DNA of 64,000 bases, from the NCBI RefSeq assembly GCF_024741795.1, contig NZ_CP102950.1:868001-932000 (forward strand), written 5' to 3'. The notes beneath the pieces are model-generated. The model saw only the letters and a program-made list of their open reading frames with translations. It was not told the origin of the DNA and made no database searches. This document shows, one piece after another, positions 14,499 through 25,650 of this stretch. The position numbers and the translations under genes are program-made. The number at the start of each line of letters is the position of its first letter. Within the stretch, counting starts at the first letter, position 1. Origin of the DNA: Arthrobacter sp. CJ23 (GTDB lineage: Bacteria > Actinomycetota > Actinomycetes > Actinomycetales > Micrococcaceae).

Positions 14499-14558
14499 AA
14501 ACACTGCGAAGACTGCCGGTTTGGCGTGTCCGCGGTGCACACGTGCAAAGGAACCATC

Positions 14559-15992
14559 TTGTCTGACTACACGGCCGTGGCCGGCAGCACCGAGGAAAAC
14601 ACCGCAGGCAGCGGAGCCGGCAACGAGGCCTTCCTGGAACGCCTGTCCTCCCGGCTCTCCCACGCCCAGCTGGCCCTCGACGAAGCCACCCGGAACAGCT
14701 ATTCGATCGACCAGGGACCCATCGTGGACCGGCATCTGCCGCTGGCCGTGGTGTGGGCCGAATCCGTGGAGAACGTGCAGCACATTGTCCGCAGCTGCGC
14801 TGCGTACGGCATCCCCATTGTGGCCCGCGGCGCCGGCACGGGCGTCTCCGGCGGCGCGCATGCGAGCAGAGGCTGCATCGTGCTCAGCCTGGAACGCATG
14901 AACCGCATCCTGGACCTCAACCCGGACGACGAGACCGCCGTCGTCGAGCCCGGCGTCATCAACGCCGGGCTGAACGCTGCTGCCGCCGAACACGGCCTCA
15001 TGTACGCGCCTGACCCGGCGAGCTTCAAGATCTCCACGATCGGCGGCAACGTGGCCACGAATGCCGGCGGGCTGCGGTGCGCCAAGTACGGCGTAACGCG
15101 CGATTCGGTGCTGGCACTGGACGTGGTCATGTCCGACGGCTCGCTGCTGCACACCGGCCACCAGACCTTCAAGGGTGTGGCCGGCTATGACCTCACGGCG
15201 CTTCTGGTGGGCTCGGAGGGGACCCTGGGGATCGTGGTGGGCGTGACGGTCCGGCTCAAGTACCTTCCCCATGAGGTCCACACCGTGGCCGCCTTCTACC
15301 CGGACTTCCGTAGCGCCGCCGCCGGCGTGCTGGCAGTGGGCAAGGCCCGGGTCCAGCCGGCCATCATGGAGTTGCTGGACAACGGCACCTTGCAGCAGTT
15401 GGACGAGATGAACGGCTCCGAGCTGCAGTCCCGCGGGAAGTCGCTGCTGCTTGTCCAGACGGACGGATTCGGTGCCGCCGCCGAGGCCGAGGTGGTGCGC
15501 CGGGTCCTGGCGGCCGGGGGCGCCGTGGTGACCACCGAGGCCAGCGAGGAAGCCGAGCAACTCGTGGAGCTGCGGCGCAACAGCCGCGGCGCCGAAGTGG
15601 ACGACGAATTCCGCGTGGGCGAAGACATTGCGGTGCCGCGTTCACGGCTTGTTGATTTCGTGGCGGAGCTCGAAGCCATGGCCTCCCGGTACCGGGTGGG
15701 GCTCAAGGTGGTGGCCCATGCCGGCGACGGCAACCTGCACCCGACGTTCTGGATGGACCGCGTGGATGAGCAGACCGACGCCGCGGCACTGCTCCGGCTC
15801 AACGCTGCCCTGGACGAATCCATCCGGGTTGGCCTGGATATGGGCGGCACCATCACCGGCGAGCATGGGGTGGGCCAGTACAAGCTCCGCTGGCTGGGCC
15901 TGGAACAGCCCGAGCCCGTGCGGGAACTGCAGCGCCGGATCAAGGACCTCTTCGACCCCGCAGGCATCCTGAATCCAGGCAAGGCCATCTAG
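14559..15992 (+). CDS. FAD-linked oxidase of the GlcD/D-lactate dehydrogenase family
   Basis: 477 residues. The PCMH FAD-binding domain takes up roughly residues 40-220, with ARGAGTGVSGGAHA and NVATNAGGLRCAKYG as the pyrophosphate loops. The C-terminal FAD-oxidase cap carries VAHAGDGNLHP and GEHGVGQYK, the two signature blocks of glycolate and D-lactate dehydrogenases. Substrate is therefore a 2-hydroxy acid, not further resolved. I prefer the TTG at 14559, which has AAAGGA 6 bases upstream, over the GTG at 14526 without a ribosome site. No GlcE/GlcF partners are adjacent. A degenerate copy of the GntR-type operator begins 5 bases after the stop. Confidence 0.85.
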   Translation: MSDYTAVAGSTEENTAGSGAGNEAFLERLSSRLSHAQLALDEATRNSYSIDQGPIVDRHLPLAVVWAESVENVQHIVRSCAAYGIPIVARGAGTGVSGGAHASRGCIVLSLERMNRILDLNPDDETAVVEPGVINAGLNAAAAEHGLMYAPDPASFKISTIGGNVATNAGGLRCAKYGVTRDSVLALDVVMSDGSLLHTGHQTFKGVAGYDLTALLVGSEGTLGIVVGVTVRLKYLPHEVHTVAAFYPDFRSAAAGVLAVGKARVQPAIMELLDNGTLQQLDEMNGSELQSRGKSLLLVQTDGFGAAAEAEVVRRVLAAGGAVVTTEASEEAEQLVELRRNSRGAEVDDEFRVGEDIAVPRSRLVDFVAELEAMASRYRVGLKVVAHAGDGNLHPTFWMDRVDEQTDAAALLRLNAALDESIRVGLDMGGTITGEHGVGQYKLRWLGLEQPEPVRELQRRIKDLFDPAGILNPGKAI

Positions 15993-15996
15993 CTTT

Positions 15997-16010
15997 TCTG
16001 GTATCCCAAA
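15997..16010. promoter_or_regulatory. Degenerate TTTGGTATACCAAA site
   Basis: TCTGGTATCCCAAA differs from the palindrome TTTGGTATACCAAA at two positions. It lies 94 bases upstream of the perfect copy at 16091 and is a plausible auxiliary operator. Confidence 0.5.
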
Positions 16011-16059
16011 AATGCGACGCGTTCCCTGATGTCACAAACCATGTCCATATTTCGGTGCA

Positions 16060-16088
16060 TTTACTTTGATGGATTCTACCCATAGTCT
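16060..16088 (+). promoter_or_regulatory. Promoter of the CynX-type transporter gene
   Basis: TTTACT (16060-16065), 17 bases, TAGTCT (16083-16088). The operator starts two bases later. The promoter of the dpp-type operon (24797-24769, minus strand) has the same spacer length, the identical -10 box and the same distance to the operator. Confidence 0.7.
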
Positions 16089-16090
16089 TA

Positions 16091-16104
16091 TTTGGTATAC
16101 CAAA
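16091..16104. promoter_or_regulatory. Perfect TTTGGTATACCAAA operator
   Basis: A perfect 14-bp palindrome covering the expected transcription start of the transporter gene. GGTATACC-type sites are known for GntR-family FCD regulators; the FCD regulator at 24967 is the obvious candidate. Confidence 0.75.
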
Positions 16105-16127
16105 AGAGACGAAAAGGGGACCATCCC

Positions 16128-17384
16128 GTGCGCGACGAGCACCAGGGCAGCAGAGGCCTGCCCGGCAACAGCAAGCGATCGACGGCGGTCTGGGTGCTGC
16201 TTGCCCTGGCTCTCGTTTCGATCAATCTCCGCCCGGCCATCACCACCATCGCCGGTGTCATGGGGCAACTGGAATCCGGATTCGGCGTCGAAGGGCGGCT
16301 GCTCCCGCTCCTTGGGGCTGTGCCGGTGCTGGCCTTCGGGATCGCCGCCCCCATCGGCCCGTGGCTGGCCCGCAGGCTGGGTTCCAGCCGGGCCGTCGCC
16401 GTCGCGCTCCTGGTGCTTGCTGCGGCGTTGGCAGCCCGCGCCCTGGTTCCGGGTTTCCTGTTTCCCGGAACCTTCCTGGCCGGAGCAGCCATCATGACGG
16501 CCAGCGTGCTGCTGCCGCAGATCGTCAAGGAGCGCCGGGGAACCGGATGGTGGACAGGCTTGTGCACCATGGGGTTCGGCCTCGGCGCGGCACTGGGGGC
16601 CGGGCTCGTCCAGCCCCTGCAGTCTGCCCTGGGCGGCAGCCTGGCCTGGGCCCTGGCAGTCTGGGCAGTCCCGGCGGTGTTGGGAGCGCTGTTTGTAGGC
16701 GGTGCCGCAGGGCGCCGAGCGGTGCCAACGGCCGACGCCCGGGCGTCCACCACGGCGGCGGTGCCCCTGCGGAAGCAGCGCACGGCCTGGGCCGTTGCCG
16801 CCTTCTTCGGGCTGCAGGCCATGCTCTACTTTGCCATCACGTCCTGGCTGGCGGTCTTCCTGGAATCCAAGGGCCTGCCGGCCGCAGAATCCGCGGCATT
16901 GCTGGCCTGGTTCAGTATTGCCGGACTGCCCGCCAGCCTCCTGGCTCCCGTTCTTGCTAGCCGGCCGAGGGTCCTGAGGATCATGGCCCCCGGACTGGGC
17001 ATCCTCATAGCAGCAGCGCTGCTGGGCGTGCTGGCCGCCCCGGCGGGGATGCAGTTCGCGCTGATAGGCGTGCTGGGCTTTGTCCAGAGTGCCCCCTTCG
17101 GCCTGGGCATGGCGTTGATCGTGCTCCGCTCGGCGGGGCCGCGCACCGCAGGGCGGCTGTCCGCCATGAGCCAAGGGCTCGGCTTCGCCGTGGCCTCGCT
17201 CGGCCCGCTCGTTGCCGGGCTGCTGCACGGGTGGACCGGCGGCTGGACGCTCAGCTTCTTCGTGCTGGCGGGCGTAGCACTCCTGGTTGCCGTGGCGGGC
17301 TTCGCTGCCGTCCGGGGGCCGGTGGTGTCTGTCGGCGAAACCACCGCGGACCGCCCAGCGGAACCAGCCGCCGTCGGGCGTTAA
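16128..17384 (+). CDS. MFS transporter, CynX/NimT family
   Basis: 418 residues, with 12 predicted membrane helices in two halves separated by a polar stretch near residue 200. SINLRPAITTIAGVMGQLE in the first helix pair is characteristic of the CynX/NimT (cyanate/nitroimidazole) branch of the major facilitator superfamily. The GTG at 16128 has AAAAGGGGA 8 bases upstream; an in-frame ATG at 16092 lies inside the operator and is less likely. Expression should be repressed through the TTTGGTATACCAAA site, together with the ABC importer and amidohydrolase. Its substrate may therefore be related to theirs, for example an N-rich small organic compound; that is inference. Confidence 0.85.
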   Translation: MRDEHQGSRGLPGNSKRSTAVWVLLALALVSINLRPAITTIAGVMGQLESGFGVEGRLLPLLGAVPVLAFGIAAPIGPWLARRLGSSRAVAVALLVLAAALAARALVPGFLFPGTFLAGAAIMTASVLLPQIVKERRGTGWWTGLCTMGFGLGAALGAGLVQPLQSALGGSLAWALAVWAVPAVLGALFVGGAAGRRAVPTADARASTTAAVPLRKQRTAWAVAAFFGLQAMLYFAITSWLAVFLESKGLPAAESAALLAWFSIAGLPASLLAPVLASRPRVLRIMAPGLGILIAAALLGVLAAPAGMQFALIGVLGFVQSAPFGLGMALIVLRSAGPRTAGRLSAMSQGLGFAVASLGPLVAGLLHGWTGGWTLSFFVLAGVALLVAVAGFAAVRGPVVSVGETTADRPAEPAAVGR

Positions 17385-17390
17385 ACAAAC

Positions 17391-17455
17391 AGCGCGAACG
17401 GGCAGCAGATGACCCCTGAACCGGGATTTAAGGGCATCTGCTGCCAGTTCGCGCT
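17391..17455. terminator. Bidirectional hairpin terminator
   Basis: A 21-bp stem with one mismatch (17391-17411 with 17435-17455) and a 23-base loop, placed between the convergent transporter and amidohydrolase genes. Confidence 0.75.
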
Positions 17456-17470
17456 CTAAGCGGGGGAGGG

Positions 17471-18700
17471 TCAGACGAGTTCGAGCCCGTCCGCCACTAC
17501 CTTGCCGCGGTGGATCACGGTGCGGTCCTTGCCGCGGTCCATGACCGCGGAGGCGACGGTCTCGCCGTCGAGCAGCAGCAGCTCGGCCGGGTCGCCGGCC
17601 TCGATGCCGGGGCGGTGGGCCGTTCCCTTCAGGCGTGTGGCGCCCGGGTCCAGCACGCTGGCGCCGCCGATGGTGGCGATCGCGAGGCAGTGCTCGATGA
17701 GCTCGTCCTTGCGGAAGCCGTGGGTGAAGGCGAGCTGCCAGGTGCGGTCCAGCATGTCCGTGTTGCCGTAGGGGGACCAGTAGTCGCGCTGGCCGTCCTC
17801 GCCCAGGCCCATGCGGACCCCGGCTTCGGCGAGCATCGGAAGGGGGAGCTGGCCGGAGATGGACGGCGCAACGGTGGCCATGGAGACGTCGAGCTCGGCG
17901 AATTCGTCGATGAGCCTGCGGGTGGTGGCCTCGTTGACGCTGCCCAGCTGGTACGCGTGGGACATGGTGACCTTGCCCTGCATGCCGAGGGCGCGCGTGC
18001 GCTCGAGCACCAGGTCCGTGCTGAAGACGCCGAGCTCACCGGGTTCGTGGAGGTGAATGTCGATGGGGACCTGGTACTTTTCGGCCAGGCCGAACACGAT
18101 GTCCAGGTGCTTGGCGGGGTCCCGGTCCAGGCTGCAGGGGTCGATGCCGCCCATGACGTTCGCACCGGCTTCGAGCGCCTCCTCCATGAGCTCGACCGTA
18201 CCCTTTTCACGGAGCAGGCCGGCCTGCGGGAAGGCGATGATCTCCACGTCGGCCCGGTCCTTGAACTGCTCCTTGGCCGCGGCCACGGCCTCGAAGCGCT
18301 CCAGATGGCAGTCCACATCCACCTGGGCGTAGGAGCGGACGCGGGTGGTGCCGCGTGCGATCATCCGGCCCAGGGTACCGTTGACACGGTCCTGCAGGGG
18401 GACCTCGGCGTTGCGCCAGTTCTGGCGGTCGTTCATCATCATGGTCCACACCCCCGGTCCGCCGGTGTGCTCGCGGAAGGGCAGGCCGATGCGGGTAGAG
18501 TCAAGGTGCACGTGGACGTCGGAGAAGGATGGCACCAAGAGGCGGCCGCGGCCCTCGACGACTGTCACGCCGGCCGCAACAGTGCGTGCGGCGTCGTGGG
18601 GCTCGACGCGGATGATCTTGCCGCCTGTCGCGTCCGCAACGATAGTCACGTCGCTGAGCGCTTGCCCCCACGGGCGGACGGCGCGGATCAGGGTGTTCAA
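17471..18700 (-). CDS. CodA-like metal-dependent amidohydrolase
   Basis: 409 residues of the cytosine-deaminase branch of the amidohydrolase superfamily. The metal ligands are in place: HVHLD at about 61-65, DIHLHEPGE at about 216, MSHAYQLG at about 249, and the Asp in GLGEDGQRDYWSPYGN at about 315. PNP-type outer strands at both ends (RVEPHDAARTV, VIHRGKVVADG) complete the composite fold. It would deaminate or hydrolyse a cyclic or amidic nitrogen compound. Being last in the dpp-type operon, it probably acts on what the importer brings in. Whether that is a pyrimidine, a triazine-like compound or another ring cannot be decided from sequence. Confidence 0.85.
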   Translation of the reverse strand: MNTLIRAVRPWGQALSDVTIVADATGGKIIRVEPHDAARTVAAGVTVVEGRGRLLVPSFSDVHVHLDSTRIGLPFREHTGGPGVWTMMMNDRQNWRNAEVPLQDRVNGTLGRMIARGTTRVRSYAQVDVDCHLERFEAVAAAKEQFKDRADVEIIAFPQAGLLREKGTVELMEEALEAGANVMGGIDPCSLDRDPAKHLDIVFGLAEKYQVPIDIHLHEPGELGVFSTDLVLERTRALGMQGKVTMSHAYQLGSVNEATTRRLIDEFAELDVSMATVAPSISGQLPLPMLAEAGVRMGLGEDGQRDYWSPYGNTDMLDRTWQLAFTHGFRKDELIEHCLAIATIGGASVLDPGATRLKGTAHRPGIEAGDPAELLLLDGETVASAVMDRGKDRTVIHRGKVVADGLELV

Positions 18701-18724
18701 TGTGTTGCTCCTTTGGTAGTGGAT

Positions 18725-19750
<1,026 letters not shown>

Positions 19751-19758
19751 GGCGGTTC

Positions 19759-20826
19759 CTAACGCGAAGTCCGGATGGTGATGATCTGGGGGCCGCTCAG
19801 ATGGCAGCGCTTGCCGTGGCCGTCCTCGACGCGCAGCTCGGGCCGCTGGCTGGCGCAGATGCCGTCCCCGGCCAGCTCGGCGTATTCGCAGCGGGCGCTG
19901 AAGATGCAGCCCTTGGGCAGGTCGAGGAGCGACGGCGGCTGGCCCGGGATGGGATTCAGCCGGCTGGAAGGGCTGTTCAGTGTGGGCATGGAGTTGAGCA
20001 GGCCCAGGGTGTAGGGGTGCCGGGTGTCGTAGAAGATCTCGTCCACCGGGCCGGATTCGACGCATTGCCCGCCGTACATGACCAGCACGGAGTCGCAGAC
20101 CTCGGCCACGACGCCGAGGTCGTGGGTGATCAGGATGAGCGCCGAGTTGGTTTCTTCCTGGAGCTCGGACATGAGGTCCAGGATCTGCGCCTGCACGGTC
20201 ACGTCCAGCGCCGTGGTGGGTTCGTCGGCGATGAGGAGCTCAGGTTCGCAGATCAGGGCCATCGCGATCATGGCGCGCTGGCGCATGCCGCCGGAGAAGT
20301 GGTGCGGGTGCTCGTCAAAGCGCTGTTCGGGACTGGGGATGCCCACCCTTCCCAGCATGTCGACGGCGGCCGCCCGGGCCTGCTTCTTAGTCGCCTTGTT
20401 GTGGACCAGGTACGCCTCGGCGATCTGGTGGCCCACTGTGTAGAAGGGATGCAGGGCCGAGAGCGGGTCCTGGAAGATCATCCCGATGTTGCGGCCGCGC
20501 AGCTGGCGCATGCCGGACTCCGGCAGAGTAACCAGGTCCTTGCCCTGGAAGAGCGCCTGCCCGGTGACCTGTGCCGAGGTGCCCTTGAGCAAGCCCATCA
20601 GCGCCTGGCTGGTGACGGACTTCCCGGACCCGGATTCGCCCACGATGCCGAGGGTTTCGCCGCGGTTCAGGGCGAAGTCCATGCCGTTCACTGCCGAGAC
20701 CACGCCGTCGTCCGTAGGGAACTTCACCGTGAGGTTGCTGACCTCTAGGAAGGCGCCGGGCTGGGCGCCGGGGCGCGTTCCGGAGGCGTCCCCGGCAGTC
20801 TGGGGGCTGTGCTGGATCTGGGTCAC
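19759..20826 (-). CDS. Dpp/Opp-type ABC importer ATPase, first subunit
   Basis: 355 residues. Walker [10 protein letters not shown], signature [13 protein letters not shown], Walker [13 protein letters not shown], switch His in [11 protein letters not shown], and the C-terminal [11 protein letters not shown]ys motif of OppD/DppD. Residues 1-25 are a polar lead. The GTG start overlaps the stop of the upstream permease (GTGA), indicating translational coupling. It hydrolyses ATP as a heterodimer with the next gene product. Confidence 0.93.
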
Positions 20827-21824
20827 TGGAGCCTCACTCGGGGGTCAATGGCGGCATAGGCGAGGTCGACGGCGACGTTCGCCACGATGACGAAGAAGGC
20901 GGCCAGCATGGTGATGGCCATGGTCACGGGCAGGTCGCCGGAGATGGCTGCGTGCACGGCGGTGAAGCCCAGGCCGGGAACGGAGAAGATCTGTTCGGTG
21001 AGGACTGCGCCACCCAGCAGCAGGCCGATGTCCATGCCGAGCATGGTGACCACGGGCGTGATACCGGCCCGGACGCCGTGCTTGAAGGTCACGGTGCGCG
21101 GCGCCAGTCCCTTGGCGCGTGCGGTGCGGATGAAGTCCTCGCCGAAGGTCTCGATCATGTTGGTGCGGGTGACGCGGATGTAGGAGGCGCTGAACAGCAC
21201 GGCGAGGGCGATCCACGGCAGCAGGTAGTTGGTGACCCACGCCCACGGCCCGTGCGGCCCGAACGGGCTGCTGATTTCGTTGGTGGTGAAGGGCAGCACG
21301 TGCAGCTGGTTGACGAACAGCAGGAGGAGGAACAGGCCGGTGACGGGGATGGGGAGCGAAACGCCCACCGAGGCCGCGCCGACGATGAACTTGTCCGTGG
21401 CTGAACCCTTGCGCAGGGCCGCGAGCAGCCCCAGGCCGACGCCGGAAACCGTCCACAGGACCAGCGCTCCGACGGCCATGGACAGGGTGTAGGGGAGTGA
21501 GCGGCCGATGATGTCCGCCACGTTCTCGTTGGTCTGGAAGGACTTGCCCAGGCACGGCCATTCGCAGATGGACTGGGCGCCCGGGGCGCCGATCATGCGG
21601 GGGGAGAACAGGCCGCGCATGTAATCGGCGTACTGGATCAGGAAGGGCTGGTCCATGCCGAGGGCCACCCGGGCCTCGGCCACGCGTTCAGGCGTGCATT
21701 CCTGCCCGCAGGCGGCCGCGGCGGGATCCGAGGGGCCGAGCTGGAACAGGGTGAAGGTGATGAAACTGACCGCGGCGAGCAGCAGGATCAACGAGCCTGC
21801 CCGGCGAAGAATGAATGTGATCAT
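20823..21824 (-). CDS. Dpp/Opp-type ABC importer permease (DppB-like)
   Basis: 333 residues. The start MITFILRRAGSLILLLAAVSFITF is the standard first helix of DppB/OppB proteins. Six membrane helices follow, and the ATPase-docking loop reads FIRTARAKGLAPRTVTFKH. It holds a longish extracellular insert (about 60-105). No ribosome site is obvious at the ATG at 21824; the preceding bases form the intercistronic hairpin. It works with the DppC-like permease encoded first in the operon. Confidence 0.9.
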   Translation of the reverse strand: MITFILRRAGSLILLLAAVSFITFTLFQLGPSDPAAAACGQECTPERVAEARVALGMDQPFLIQYADYMRGLFSPRMIGAPGAQSICEWPCLGKSFQTNENVADIIGRSLPYTLSMAVGALVLWTVSGVGLGLLAALRKGSATDKFIVGAASVGVSLPIPVTGLFLLLLFVNQLHVLPFTTNEISSPFGPHGPWAWVTNYLLPWIALAVLFSASYIRVTRTNMIETFGEDFIRTARAKGLAPRTVTFKHGVRAGITPVVTMLGMDIGLLLGGAVLTEQIFSVPGLGFTAVHAAISGDLPVTMAITMLAAFFVIVANVAVDLAYAAIDPRVRLQ

Positions 21825-21834
21825 TGTGCTGGTT

Positions 21835-21865
21835 GCGGGCCGCCCGGGGGTGCCGGGCGGCCCGC
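21835..21865 (-). other. Intercistronic stem-loop after the binding-protein gene
   Basis: GCGGGCCGCCCGG (21835-21847) and CCGGGCGGCCCGC (21853-21865) make a perfect 13-bp stem with a 5-base loop, without a T run on the coding strand. It sits between the binding-protein and DppB-like genes and ends 11 bases before the latter's start, so it may also limit permease translation. Confidence 0.65.
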
Positions 21866-21889
21866 TTCTCCTTCTGGACGAAGCCCTGT

Positions 21890-23617
21890 CTAGTGCTCGA
21901 CGCCGACGATCGAGAGGTCGATTCCGCCGAAGAAGTAGCCCACCTGGGCATTGCGGACGTTGGAGCCCACCACGCTGTTGGTGTGGCTGCGGATGAGCGG
22001 AATGATCGGGTACGTCTTCAGGGCCGAACCGAAGGCCTCGGCCCACTTCTTGCCGAGTTCCTCCGAGGACCCGGTGGTGTTCCGCAGCTCAAACATGGCC
22101 TTGGAAACCTGGGGGTCGAAGTAGCGCGAGGTGTTGGAGAAGCCGTAGCTGGTGCCGTCGTTGTTCGGGCCCAGGATGGGGTCGGCAGAGGTGCGGACGG
22201 AGGCGGGGTCGGCGCCGCCGCACCAGCCCGAGCGTCCCATGTCCGGAAGCTGCTCGCTGGCCAGGACCGAGTAGTAGTTCGGGGCCGGGATCGGCACGAG
22301 CTCGACGTCGATGCCCAGCGCCTTGAGGTTCTGCTGCACCACGGTGCCGGTGTTCTTGTAGGCGTCGCGGTTGTTGGCGTAGCCGAACGTGAGGGTCTTG
22401 GGGTACGTCTTGCCCTCGAGGAGCTTCTTGGCTTCCTCCAGCTTTGGCTTGCCCGCGGGATCCAGCTCCAGCTCAGTGGACACGTAGCCGCGCATCTTGG
22501 AGTTCAGCGGGCTCTGGGTCAGCTCGCCGAAGCGGCGTCCGCCGTACTGGACCAGGATGGACTGCCGGTCCAGGGCCAGGGCGATGGCCTTGCGGACATC
22601 GGGGTCCGTGATCTTCTGCGTGTTCAGGCTCAGGACGTCGTTGCAGCCCAGCAGCCCGGAGGCCACTCGGTCCTTGACCTGGGCGTCGGCAAGCTTGGCC
22701 GAATCGGAGGTCTGCAGGGCGCCGTTGGAGTCGAGCGTGATGGCGTTCGGGTCCGAGTTGGCGAGCAGCTGCTGGCTGATGGTGGCCTGGGACGTGGACA
22801 GGGAGAAGCTGAACGTGTCCGGCAGGGCCGTGCGGTTGGGGTCCGTGGCGGCGTCCCAGTGCGGGTTGCGGACCAGCTTCAGGGACTTGCCGCGGTTGTA
22901 GGACTCCACCATGTAGGGCCCGGAGGAGACCGGGTGGTTGGTGTAGTCCAGCTTGGTGTCCTTGCCCTTGGGGACCGGGGCCGTGTTGGAACGCGACGCC
23001 AGGGCGGGGAACTCCGCGAACGGCTTCTTCAGGTGGAAGACCACCGTGCGCTCATCGGGCGTGTCGACAGCCTTGAGCACAGCGGAAGGGTCCTTGTACG
23101 GCCCCTTGTACCCGCCGGCGTCGAGCGCGGCATTCAGCTCCTGCGGGGCCTGGGTGTAGACGTCCTGGGCGAAGGTCCGCTCGATGCCGTACTTGATGTC
23201 CGCGGAGGTGATGGGGCTGCCGTCCTCGAACTTCACGCCTTCCTTGAGCGTGAAGGTCCAGCTGAGCCCGTCCTCGGAGACCTTGCCGGTGTCCGTGGCA
23301 AGGTCGGGAACAACAGTAGGCGGCTGGCCGGCGGTTTCCTTGGCCATGGTCAGCGTGCGGTAGTACAGCTGGCCGACGTTGGCCGTCTGGACGTAGTTGC
23401 TGTTTCCGGGGTCAAGGGTCTGGAAATCGGAGGACATCAGGACGTTGATGTTGCCGCCCTTGGCCGTGAAGCCGGACTTGACCACATTGGGTGCCAGCTC
23501 GGTGACGGACTCGGCGGGCTTGGCATTGCCCGCCGGGGCCTGCCCGGCCGCGCCGCAGCCGGTGGCCGCCATGGCGATCAGCACAGAAAGCGCCAGTGCT
23601 TTTGTGGGGGTTTTCAT
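21890..23617 (-). CDS. Dpp/Opp-type ABC importer binding lipoprotein
   Basis: 575 residues, the size usual for family 5 (peptide/nickel/opine) binding proteins. Signal peptide with lipobox (AMAATGC, Cys21). The family 5 signature appears as TLTMAKETAGQPPTVVPDLA followed by WTFTLKEGVKFEDGSPITSADIKYGIER. The ligand is not restricted to peptides in this family. The ATG at 23617 has GAGGAG 5 bases upstream. It is the second gene of the operon, which is unusual because the DppC-like permease comes first. Confidence 0.92.
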   Translation of the reverse strand: MKTPTKALALSVLIAMAATGCGAAGQAPAGNAKPAESVTELAPNVVKSGFTAKGGNINVLMSSDFQTLDPGNSNYVQTANVGQLYYRTLTMAKETAGQPPTVVPDLATDTGKVSEDGLSWTFTLKEGVKFEDGSPITSADIKYGIERTFAQDVYTQAPQELNAALDAGGYKGPYKDPSAVLKAVDTPDERTVVFHLKKPFAEFPALASRSNTAPVPKGKDTKLDYTNHPVSSGPYMVESYNRGKSLKLVRNPHWDAATDPNRTALPDTFSFSLSTSQATISQQLLANSDPNAITLDSNGALQTSDSAKLADAQVKDRVASGLLGCNDVLSLNTQKITDPDVRKAIALALDRQSILVQYGGRRFGELTQSPLNSKMRGYVSTELELDPAGKPKLEEAKKLLEGKTYPKTLTFGYANNRDAYKNTGTVVQQNLKALGIDVELVPIPAPNYYSVLASEQLPDMGRSGWCGGADPASVRTSADPILGPNNDGTSYGFSNTSRYFDPQVSKAMFELRNTTGSSEELGKKWAEAFGSALKTYPIIPLIRSHTNSVVGSNVRNAQVGYFFGGIDLSIVGVEH

Positions 23618-23665
23618 GTTGCTCCTCGTGAGGGGTTGGTGAACTGAGGGACGTGCGGTGGGGAT

Positions 23666-24727
23666 CTAGTGGCGTGAGGCCTTGGGGTCCAGGGCGTCCC
23701 GCACGGCGTCGCCGAGCAGGTTGAAGGCCAGGACGGTGACCACGAGCATGATGCCGGGCACGGCCAGGAACCAGGGATCGCTGAGGTACCAGTTGCCGGA
23801 CTGTGCGGCATTGAGCATCTGGCCCCACGACGGTGTGGGGTCCTTGACGCCGACGCCGAGGAATGACAGCGCGGCCTCGGCGGAGATGTTTGTGGGGATG
23901 AGCATGGTGGCGTACACCAGGACCACGCCCATGACGTTGGGGATGATCTGGCGGAACAGCACGCTCAGGTGCGAGGCTCCGAACGAGCGTGCTGCTTCAA
24001 CGAATTCGCGCTCGCGCAGGCTCAGGACCTGGCCGCGGACAATCCGGGCCAGGTAGGCCCAGCCGAAGAAGCCCAGGATGATCACGAGCGATGCCATCGG
24101 CAGGAAGCTTCCCTCGCCCAGCGGCGTGCCGCGGAGGCGGGACTGCAGGATCGGGGTGAGGGACAGCACCAGGAGCAGGTGCGGGAACGCGAGGAACAAG
24201 TCCATGATCCGGCTGATGATGGCGTCGGTCTTGCCGCCGAAGTAGCCGGCCGCCGCGCCCAGCACCGTGCCCAGGACCACGGAAACAAGGGTGGACAGCA
24301 GGGCAATGGTCAGCGAGATCTGGCCGCCGTGGGCAAGCCGGGCGAACAGGTCGCGGCCCAGGCCGGGTTCGACGCCGAGCCAGTGCTGGGCCGAAGGGTA
24401 CATGAAGCCCGGGAGGGGCAGCCCCGGCGTCTGGAAATCATCCAGGACGTCCGGGCTGGTGTTGGACGTGTAGGGGTCGTTGCCGGACAGGGCGCTGAGC
24501 CACGGGGCGAGGATGGCGAACAGCATGATGGCCACCACCACGAACAGGCTGAGCAGGGCGACCTTGCTCCGGCGGATCCGCAGCCACGCCGTGGCGAGCA
24601 GGGAACGCGCCTCGGCCGGGGCAGCGGATGCGGGCCTGGCGGGCATCTTTTCGGGTTCGTCCGGCGGCGGACTGCCGGTATTCGGCTCGGCGGACTTTAG
24701 CTGGGTCAACGGTTGTGCTCGATTCAT
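23666..24727 (-). CDS. Dpp/Opp-type ABC importer permease (DppC-like)
   Basis: 353 residues. A polar N-terminus of about 45 residues precedes the first helix (KVALLSLFVVVAIMLFAILAPWL). The extracellular segment has the family pattern QHWLGVEPGLGRDLFARLAHG, and the docking loop is EFVEAARSFGASHLSVLFRQIIPN. It is the first gene of the operon, 25 bases below the GGTATACC operator, with a weak ribosome site (GGAG 13 bases upstream of the ATG). Together with the DppB-like subunit it forms the membrane channel. Confidence 0.92.
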   Translation of the reverse strand: MNRAQPLTQLKSAEPNTGSPPPDEPEKMPARPASAAPAEARSLLATAWLRIRRSKVALLSLFVVVAIMLFAILAPWLSALSGNDPYTSNTSPDVLDDFQTPGLPLPGFMYPSAQHWLGVEPGLGRDLFARLAHGGQISLTIALLSTLVSVVLGTVLGAAAGYFGGKTDAIISRIMDLFLAFPHLLLVLSLTPILQSRLRGTPLGEGSFLPMASLVIILGFFGWAYLARIVRGQVLSLREREFVEAARSFGASHLSVLFRQIIPNVMGVVLVYATMLIPTNISAEAALSFLGVGVKDPTPSWGQMLNAAQSGNWYLSDPWFLAVPGIMLVVTVLAFNLLGDAVRDALDPKASRH

Positions 24728-24752
24728 GATCCAAGGAGATGGCTCCGGAACG

Positions 24753-24766
24753 TTTTGTATACCAAA
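24753..24766. promoter_or_regulatory. GGTATACC-type operator of the dpp-type operon
   Basis: TTTTGTATACCAAA, one mismatch from TTTGGTATACCAAA. It begins two bases downstream of the -10 box of the left-going promoter, exactly the geometry seen at 16091. Confidence 0.75.
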
Positions 24767-24768
24767 AA

Positions 24769-24797
24769 AGACTAGAGCACGTTTGGTGCGATGTAAA
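24769..24797 (-). promoter_or_regulatory. Promoter of the dpp-type operon
   Basis: On the minus strand, TTTACA (24797-24792), 17 bases, TAGTCT (24774-24769). Matches the transporter promoter at 16060-16088 in both boxes except one base. Confidence 0.7.
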
Positions 24798-24814
24798 TCA
24801 CAAATATTGTATTA

Positions 24815-24828
24815 TTTGGAATACCAGA
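24815..24828. promoter_or_regulatory. Second operator copy, near the regulator gene promoter
   Basis: TTTGGAATACCAGA, two mismatches from TTTGGTATACCAAA. It abuts a TATTAT box (24810-24815) on the plus strand that could serve the regulator gene, which suggests autoregulation. Confidence 0.6.
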
Positions 24829-24966
24829 CGCGAATCAGCGTAAGCGTCCCGCGACGCCCTGTTCCTGGACTCCGATGAGCCCTTTCCGCCCGTGTATGCT
24901 CGGGTGGAACGCTGACCGGCGGCGTCCACGGGACGCCGCCGGCCTTAGCCTGAATGGAGTGGAACA

Positions 24967-25650
24967 GTGGCAGAATCGATGCCGGAGCCAGCGAAGGCCC
25001 GTGACGACGAGGCCCGGGCCGAGCACGTCTACCAGTTGGTGCTCGAAGGGATCGTGACCGGCACCTTCCAACGGGGCGGACGCCTGCGCGAACGTGAGCT
25101 GTCCGAGATGTACGACGTCTCCAGGATCCCGGTCCGCGAAGCCATCCAGCGCCTCGAGCAGGACGGCTTCGTGGAGACGTTCCCGCGCAGGGGAGCGGTG
25201 GTCCGCCAGCTCACGCTCACGGACGTCAATGAGCTTTTCGACGTCCGGCTCTGCCTCGAGGCCTTTGCCGCCAGAATGGCTGCCGCCCGCGTCGCAGAAG
25301 GCCACTCCGGCGGGCGCCTGCAGGAGTTGCTGGACGAGTCCCGGACCGCCATCGACGAAAACCGTCCGGACGACGTGGTCCGCTTGAGCGCCGAACTCCA
25401 CGCAGAGATCGTCCGCATGTCCGGCAACCGGCTGCTCATCGAATCCGTGAAGCCGCTCTTTGGCCGCATGCGCTGGATCTTCGGCCTTGCCCACAACCGC
25501 AGCAACGAGCTCCAGCGCGACGAACACACCGCCCTCTGCGACGCGATCCTCAAGGGCAGGCCGGAGCTGGCCTATTCGCTGGCCTACTCACACATCGAGC
25601 TGGGCCGCGAGCCCGTGCTCGCCGGCCTCGCGGAAACGCTGGAACCTTGA
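24967..25650 (+). CDS. GntR-family regulator, FCD subgroup
   Basis: 227 residues. The winged helix is at about 20-85 (GGRLRERELSEMYDVSRIPVREAIQRLEQDGFV), the GntR signature. The C-terminal all-helical FCD domain carries the metal/ligand residues in the LSAELHAEIVRMSGN block and in ALCDAILKGRPELA. FCD domains sense small carboxylates or related metabolites. The GTG at 24967 has GGAG 7 bases upstream. It is divergent from the dpp-type operon and the likely reader of the TTTGGTATACCAAA sites at 16091, 24753 and 24815. Confidence 0.9.
   Translation: MAESMPEPAKARDDEARAEHVYQLVLEGIVTGTFQRGGRLRERELSEMYDVSRIPVREAIQRLEQDGFVETFPRRGAVVRQLTLTDVNELFDVRLCLEAFAARMAAARVAEGHSGGRLQELLDESRTAIDENRPDDVVRLSAELHAEIVRMSGNRLLIESVKPLFGRMRWIFGLAHNRSNELQRDEHTALCDAILKGRPELAYSLAYSHIELGREPVLAGLAETLEP

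Follow-up and report, generated by a model that had tools for sequence, protein, structure and literature searches.

Which genes answer to the GntR/FCD regulator gene that lies in a 64,000-bp stretch of Arthrobacter sp. CJ23 (NZ_CP102950.1, positions 868,001 to 932,000; hereafter the window), beside one of two near-identical promoters? The regulator, termed FCDw here, is encoded next to a dpp operon for a Dpp/Opp-type importer, the last gene of which codes for the CodA/AtzC-like amidohydrolase AmiW, and the operon points towards a gene for a CynX/NimT-like transporter. A first-pass annotation of the same DNA had placed importer, carrier and amidohydrolase under one regulator, a proposal that regulator–motif co-occurrence, synteny and promoter conservation strongly support as a prediction from sequence. 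We consider it quite probable that FCDw is a dedicated and probably repressing regulator of a dispersed regulon.

The promoter had been reported as present twice, about 8.7 kb apart and on opposite strands, and this holds. The complete unit, TTTAC(T/A), 17 bases, TAGTCT, two bases and TTTGGTATAC(C/A)AAA, occurs without a single mismatch at 16060-16104 on the plus strand and at 24797-24753 on the minus strand. Even when up to 3 mismatches are allowed, the window has no further copy of promoter plus palindrome, and none of 100 dinucleotide shuffles contained the unit. Scanning for the palindrome TTTGGTATACCAAA at up to 3 mismatches gave four window sites (15997, 16091, 24753 and 24815), against a shuffle mean of 0.32 and a maximum of 2, with 0 of 100 shuffles reaching four. 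The starts of the two strong sites, 16091 and 24753, are separated by 8,662 bp, and the promoters have opposite orientations. The regulatory elements are as follows.

15997 to 16010, no strand: CynX distal operator copy, 2 mismatches, 94 bp from 16091
16060 to 16088, plus strand: CynX promoter, -35 TTTACT, 17 bases, -10 TAGTCT, exact match to the unit
16091 to 16104, no strand: CynX main operator TTTGGTATACCAAA, exact and conserved palindrome beginning 2 bases past the -10 box
24753 to 24766, no strand: operator of the dpp promoter, 1 mismatch, from the palindrome scan
24769 to 24797, minus strand: dpp promoter, -35 TTTACA, 17 bases, -10 TAGTCT, exact match to the unit
24787 to 24802, minus strand: CRP/GlxR-like box TGTGATTTACATCGCA, overlapping the dpp -35 element, from the box scan
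24815 to 24828, no strand: second operator of the dpp/FCDw divergon, 2 mismatches, facing the regulator gene, 62 bp from 24753

The weaker copies at 15997 and 24815, also listed in the annotation, match TTTGGTATACCAAA at 2 mismatches and are not a product of chance; the same distances recur in most relatives with fetched loci. The GntR/FCD gene does stand beside one of the sites (24967-25650), with 152 bp between its start and that of site 24815, and its product passes both Pfam cut-offs (GntR, 66 bits against 27; FCD, 73.4 bits against 24.3). The palindromic GT-Nx-AC operators by this gene, 24753 and 24815, are conserved in relatives. The AmiW and FCDw closest to those of the window (93%) are found in genome G009, where the 24815-type site is followed after 56 bp by a PRK06151-type gene that separates dpp from FCDw. 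This gene has no counterpart in the window, so an operator on the regulator's side is the best reading of site 24815.

Beyond the window, the palindrome was sought across the 4.63-Mb genome, a single contig (C1), with the reversed pattern as control. At up to two mismatches, the stringency at which the annotation had envisaged tracing the regulon, 13 sites were obtained and the control gave 4; the 13 cannot be taken as one regulon, given this control and the four GATC-centred sites among them. At up to one mismatch only five sites remain, all at linked genes, and the control falls to 0. Two are the CynX and dpp promoters of the window; the other three are listed below.

C1:1477858: site of the prolidase-like amidohydrolase
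C1:3328295: site in the divergon of the PRK06151 amidohydrolase and DUF3100
C1:4088045: site of the AmiP1 operon, with a second amidohydrolase and an ATP-binding cassette (ABC) importer

The regulon predicted from these sites is thus wider than earlier proposed, with five loci in its own genome. The distant targets of FCDw would comprise the prolidase-like amidohydrolase, the PRK06151 amidohydrolase with the DUF3100 membrane protein, and two CodA-like amidohydrolases with the ABC importer; the CodA-like paralogues AmiP1 and AmiP2 share 40% and 38% identity with AmiW. Within the window, its targets would be the CynX-type transporter, the operon for the dpp importer and AmiW, and FCDw itself.

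The assignment of the palindrome to FCDw draws on a comparison set of 206 genomes of the genus, in which FCDw was called at an E value of up to 1e-50 (80 genomes) and the motif as a site of up to 1 mismatch (81 genomes). Both were present in 76 genomes, the regulator alone in 4, the motif alone in 5 and neither in 121 (Fisher 7.5e-45, a p-value that, like the other one for co-occurrence, treats related genomes as independent); the reversed pattern split 15/65/13/113 (p 0.10). The association persists among the 99 AmiW-positive genomes (AmiW of 54% or more), which divide 70/2/3/24 in the same order, and the motif follows FCDw better than it follows either the AmiW enzyme or the paralogue FCD9. 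The four genomes with the regulator only (G032, G097, G043 and G131) hold 2-mismatch sites at regulon loci.

It could also be that FCD paralogues with near-identical operators share these sites, FCDw running its own cluster only while FCD9 (C1:4476909) or local regulators run the distant loci. The genome encodes 24 FCD domains, three TTTGGGATCCCAAA sites stand no more than about 5 kb from FCD9, and in seven relatives (G032, G043, G097, G131, G139, G179 and G180) it lies within about 4 kb of a TTTGGGATCCCAAA-type site. Moreover, at four loci (L258, L262, L272 and L278) FCDw relatives of 41-44% stand beside OCD (ornithine-cyclodeaminase family) or MFS/prolidase-like genes with TTTGGCATACCAAA or TTTGGCATGCCAAA sites; these CATA- and CATG-centred variants perhaps form a family of related operators. 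Nevertheless, we regard such sharing as unlikely. FCD9 does not predict the TATA-centred motif among FCDw-negative genomes (3/55/2/66), a split that rules it out as sole reader of that motif; homologues of the distant targets cluster with FCDw itself in relatives, and PRK06151 is almost confined to FCDw genomes.

FCD9 belongs to a locus of its own (L009 8169-13593; G000:C1:4472168-4477592), which encodes two MFS transporters, an amidase and FCD9 and carries three TTTGGGATCCCAAA sites and one CTTTGTATACCAAA site, arranged as two pairs 50-51 bp apart. It appears to be a sister system of the FCDw regulon, and TTTGGGATCCCAAA is the more likely operator of FCD9.

The annotation had considered that the motif might prove scattered without relation to these genes. 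Instead, a target gene starts -120 to 400 bp from the site in 181 of 204 sites (81 genomes), a tally that describes rather than tests the regulon, because the target set was partly built from genes beside sites. The 181 comprise 53 at CynX, 30 at PRK06151/DUF3100, 22 at the prolidase-like gene, 18 at AmiP3 alone and 58 at other targets, among them dpp, FCDw, AmiP1, MFS, OCD and hydroxypyruvate isomerase; 19 were placed from gene positions of the homologue search. Seven fetched sites lack a listed target and 16 sites fall outside the fetched loci. Separate from this tally, PRK06151 is present in 65 of 80 FCDw genomes and in 1 of 126 others. Gene order points the same way: G024 holds PRK06151, DUF3100, CynX, AmiW, dpp and FCDw in a single stretch, with sites before PRK06151/DUF3100, CynX and dpp/FCDw, and G044 and G062 combine an FCDw of about 52% with prolidase, PRK06151, DUF3100 and AmiW. 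An OCD-family gene adjoins FCDw in G044, G042 and G032.

Three further observations concern the loci of relatives. Six FCDw-positive genomes (L246, L259, L261, L265, L267 and L268) have a hydroxypyruvate isomerase homologue with a TTTGGTATCCCAAA site of up to 1 mismatch no more than 400 bp in front of it; such a gene is not among the targets of the own genome's sites. At L218 and L219 (G054 and G073) an AmiW relative of 65-66% has a different Dpp set and an FCD regulator of 41% as its neighbours, so that the triad of amidohydrolase, importer and FCD regulator recurs. A pattern-based, FCDw-led scan of named genomes, limited in reach, gave 37 loci, 36 of them in Arthrobacter or Paenarthrobacter records and the remaining one a 31% match in Actinophytocola.

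Shared ancestry alone would offer another account, with sites kept along with their promoters and co-occurrence mirroring clades rather than regulation. It gains from the mere five changes of FCDw on the AmiW tree and from an underpowered independent-pairs test, and is nonetheless very improbable in our view. One and the same palindrome is found before genes that are not homologous, in a constant position with respect to the -10 box, and in the CynX and prolidase promoters the 14-mer is nearly invariant while the flanking DNA varies. In G027, G090 and G144 AmiW is retained, with neither FCDw nor any site of up to 1 mismatch left. Among prolidase promoters, those of 23 of the 24 FCDw-positive genomes examined (46 have the gene) and those of 3 of the 9 FCDw-negative ones (all such genomes) carry a site with no more than 2 mismatches; in four FCDw-negative genomes the best site has 5-7 mismatches.

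Several observations weigh against control by FCDw. Five genomes carry the motif with no FCDw called at E 1e-50. G180, which is 68% complete, has a prolidase gene at one of its sites and an OCD gene at another. The hits of G046 and G177 are asymmetric, the sites of G139 lie by an OCD gene and next to another FCD gene, and no listed target accompanies those of G179. G099, also without FCDw, keeps a 2-mismatch site and a second one of up to 3 mismatches before its prolidase gene. The genomes are related, and an AmiW tree with 86 rows, drawn from the AmiW genomes, shows no more than 5 changes of FCDw. This tree yields four independent pairs, in which the motif follows the regulator in about 2.5, behaves oppositely in 0.1 and does not differ in 1.5; the test is underpowered, as four pairs cannot reach significance, though it points the same way. 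Finally, only one rival, FCD9, was compared among the 24 FCD domains of the genome.

How FCDw might act is suggested by the position of its operators, which are placed alike over 47 CynX promoters (the window's included) and 39 dpp promoters. At the position of the window's elements, TTTAC is found in 41 of the CynX promoters and TAnnCT likewise in 41, while the operator lies 36-40 bp before the DppC start in 34 dpp promoters and 54-57 bp before it in 5. Because only two bases separate the -10 box from the palindrome, we infer occlusion of the transcription start: FCDw dimers on TTTGGTATACCAAA-type palindromes would cover it and shut out RNA polymerase. With the second palindrome usually 62-96 bp off, two dimers could act jointly, perhaps via a small loop, and a ligand, by family likely a carboxylate, would free FCDw from its operators.

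Global carbon control is likely layered on top, since the dpp and most of the DUF3100 promoters have a CRP-like box (TGTGA-N6-TCACA type). In its loose form this box occurs in 39 of 39 dpp contexts, 19 of 23 for DUF3100, 15 of 24 for PRK06151-type genes in the divergon and 4 of 23 for FCDw; it was found in none of the 47 CynX, 21 prolidase, 22 PRK06151 and 6 AmiP1 contexts. The weight of the window's box comes from this conservation across dpp promoters and not from the window count, which is unremarkable (10 boxes at one mismatch against 6.25 expected). One Crp helix-turn-helix domain is encoded in the own genome, at C1:3737408.

Spacing between operators was surveyed over 106 loci, the window included, as neighbouring site pairs under 300 bp. 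The 110 pairs fall at 62-64 bp (44), 93-96 bp (37), 83-85 bp (12), 50-51 bp (4), 129-132 bp (4) and other distances (9). For the dpp/FCDw divergon, one relative has its pair at 233 bp, and L081, L112, L122 and L127 showed one site. The 44 CynX pairs measure either 83-85 bp (11) or 93-96 bp (33), with seven further CynX promoters showing a single site; on the CynX tree this spacing switched six times, five of them forced by well-supported branches. The tree includes one CynX gene (L147, G203) that is split over two reading pieces and sits on a very long branch; it was retained in the counts. The switching of CynX pairs between these two classes favours a whole-turn constraint. Against it, pairs at 129-132 and 152 bp are about half a turn off the helical phase, and phasing over all twelve spacing modes gives p 0.3, although p is 0.014 when only the nine modes below 120 bp are taken. 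A helical phase shared by every pair is therefore rejected, as the wider ones break it.

The genes of the window to which these sites belong, with their neighbours, are as follows.

14526 to 15992, plus strand: GlcD-like FAD oxidase, neighbour; TIGR00387 370 bits, below the cut-off of 567.9
16128 to 17384, plus strand: CynX/NimT-like MFS transporter; TIGR00896 221.3 bits (cut-off 406), MFS_1
17391 to 17455, no strand: long hairpin between convergent genes, -45.8 kcal/mol, z -6.0
17471 to 18700, minus strand: AmiW, CodA/AtzC-like amidohydrolase, last gene of the dpp operon; Amidohydro_3, PRK05985, PDB 6nbo 254 bits
18725 to 19750, minus strand: DppF-like ATPase, ATG at 19750, scanned with one additional codon in front
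19759 to 20826, minus strand: DppD-like ATPase, by Pfam/NCBIfam
20823 to 21824, minus strand: DppB-like permease, by Pfam/NCBIfam
21890 to 23617, minus strand: SBP_bac_5 solute-binding protein, closest solved structure 2wok
23666 to 24727, minus strand: DppC-like permease, first gene of the dpp operon, by Pfam/NCBIfam
24967 to 25650, plus strand: GntR/FCD regulator FCDw, with GntR and FCD domains

For the CynX-type gene the most likely start is GTG 16128, with the ribosome-binding-like AAAAGGGG upstream. The dpp operon runs from 24727 to 17471 in the order DppC, solute-binding protein, DppB, DppD, DppF, AmiW, with gaps of 8 to 65 bp or a 4-bp overlap, and encodes an importer of Dpp/Opp type (SBP_bac_5, two BPD_transp_1 permeases and two ABC_tran plus oligo_HPY ATPases). 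It is oriented towards the CynX-type gene with the strong hairpin in between, a near-perfect long inverted repeat without a T run and a candidate two-way terminator.

The labels 'CynX' and 'CodA' stand as names of the nearest families; among the matches listed, the CynX, dpp and AmiW genes meet no curated NCBIfam cut-off and are placed in broad families only. AmiW reached 125, 112 and 90 bits with the curated cytosine deaminase models (cut-offs 438, 483 and 403) and fell just short with PRK05985 (397.8 against 408). The carrier passed neither TIGR00896 (221.3 against 406) nor PRK09705 (120 against 312). No substrate-specific importer model scored above its cut-off among the matches listed, DppF being 0.6 bits short of a broad subfamily model. 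The GlcD-like oxidase, which the annotation had counted as a possible member, is probably outside the regulon. No site of up to 3 mismatches precedes its gene in the window, and G027, G090 and G144 keep GlcD and AmiW at a locus without CynX, dpp or the FCD gene, in genomes without a site of up to 1 mismatch.

As to what these enzymes process, we give about an even chance to N-acyl or cyclic amino-acid compounds and favour them over nucleobase-like rings. Partner genes in relatives suggest amino-acid derivatives at least as much as pyrimidines or triazines. The annotation's own reading, a nucleobase, triazine or hydantoin-like substrate, is compatible with an FCDw regulon and seems possible though rather doubtful. 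It agrees with the closest solved structures to AmiW, which are N-isopropylammelide aminohydrolases, with the CynX/NimT-type carrier, and with PRK06151, whose nearest matches are 8-oxoguanine deaminase/hydroxydechloroatrazine ethylaminohydrolase, with triazine hydrolases further down. It fits less well with the OCD-family enzyme, M20 amidohydrolase and amino acid permease found as partners in relatives, with a prolidase-like enzyme resembling arginine carboxypeptidase and Xaa-Pro dipeptidases, or with importers of peptide type, the window's solute-binding protein being nearest to 2wok. Of the proteins in the target set that were scanned, PRK06151 and the M20 protein alone score above a curated NCBIfam cut-off, in each case that of a broad subfamily model. 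In 22 fetched AmiW loci without FCDw, no shared partner that would name the substrate was found near AmiW, the Dpp set and FCD gene of G054 and G073 apart.

The DUF3100 protein (L006 8362-9771) was modelled with AlphaFold2 (mean predicted local distance difference test score 83). The model aligns best with AspT, CitS and NapA, and Foldseek returned weak matches and no firm hit; with moderate confidence, the protein is predicted to fold like elevator-type carriers (CPA/AT). Only tentatively, FCDw might coordinate an undescribed catabolic network for one class of N-acylated or cyclised amino-acid compounds. It would combine several unrelated amidohydrolases with DUF3100 as a new family of transporters (perhaps AspT/CitS-like), with several other carriers and, in relatives, with an OCD-family enzyme; CynX operator spacing would shift by about one helical turn only.

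Our literature searches found no published account of this regulator, its operator or DUF3100. The regulon would gather genes with vague names (CodA-like, CynX-like, chlorohydrolase, DUF3100, prolidase-like) into a single unit open to testing, and membership in it suggests a transporter role for DUF3100. For common soil bacteria it also offers an operator sequence together with a candidate regulator and candidate inducible promoters, and the CynX operator spacings form a natural one-turn series for probing cooperative binding by FCD repressors.

Among characterised enzymes, AmiW belongs to one amidohydrolase group with AtzC and CodA (PDB 6nbo, 2qt3 and 1k6w). Its HxH, HLHE, SHA and D segments align with 6nbo, whereas HxH is followed by LDST in AmiW, LDKT in 6nbo and MDKS in AtzC, and AmiW stays below every curated cut-off. 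Among regulators, FCDw is akin in sequence to Atu1419 of Agrobacterium fabrum (structure 6z74, E 1.4e-12, residues 26-111). The FCD tetramer of Atu1419 can loop between two TATA-centred palindromes, ATGTATACAT, 190 or 109 bp apart (PMC7797058). The predicted FCDw operators are TATA-centred palindromes too, but lie mostly 62-96 bp apart and precede different target genes. FadR-subfamily FCD regulons with a 2-nt GT-AC spacer (UxuR, HypR, PrpR and HpxS) include double-site divergons (PMC4494728), and they share with FCDw the helix-turn-helix plus FCD architecture, an AT-rich TKGT..ACMA palindrome and a double-site divergon by the regulator gene. In contrast to these regulons, the predicted targets of FCDw span several amidohydrolase groups at five loci. 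By its predicted members, the FCDw regulon is an FCD regulon of known type with an unusual breadth of targets.

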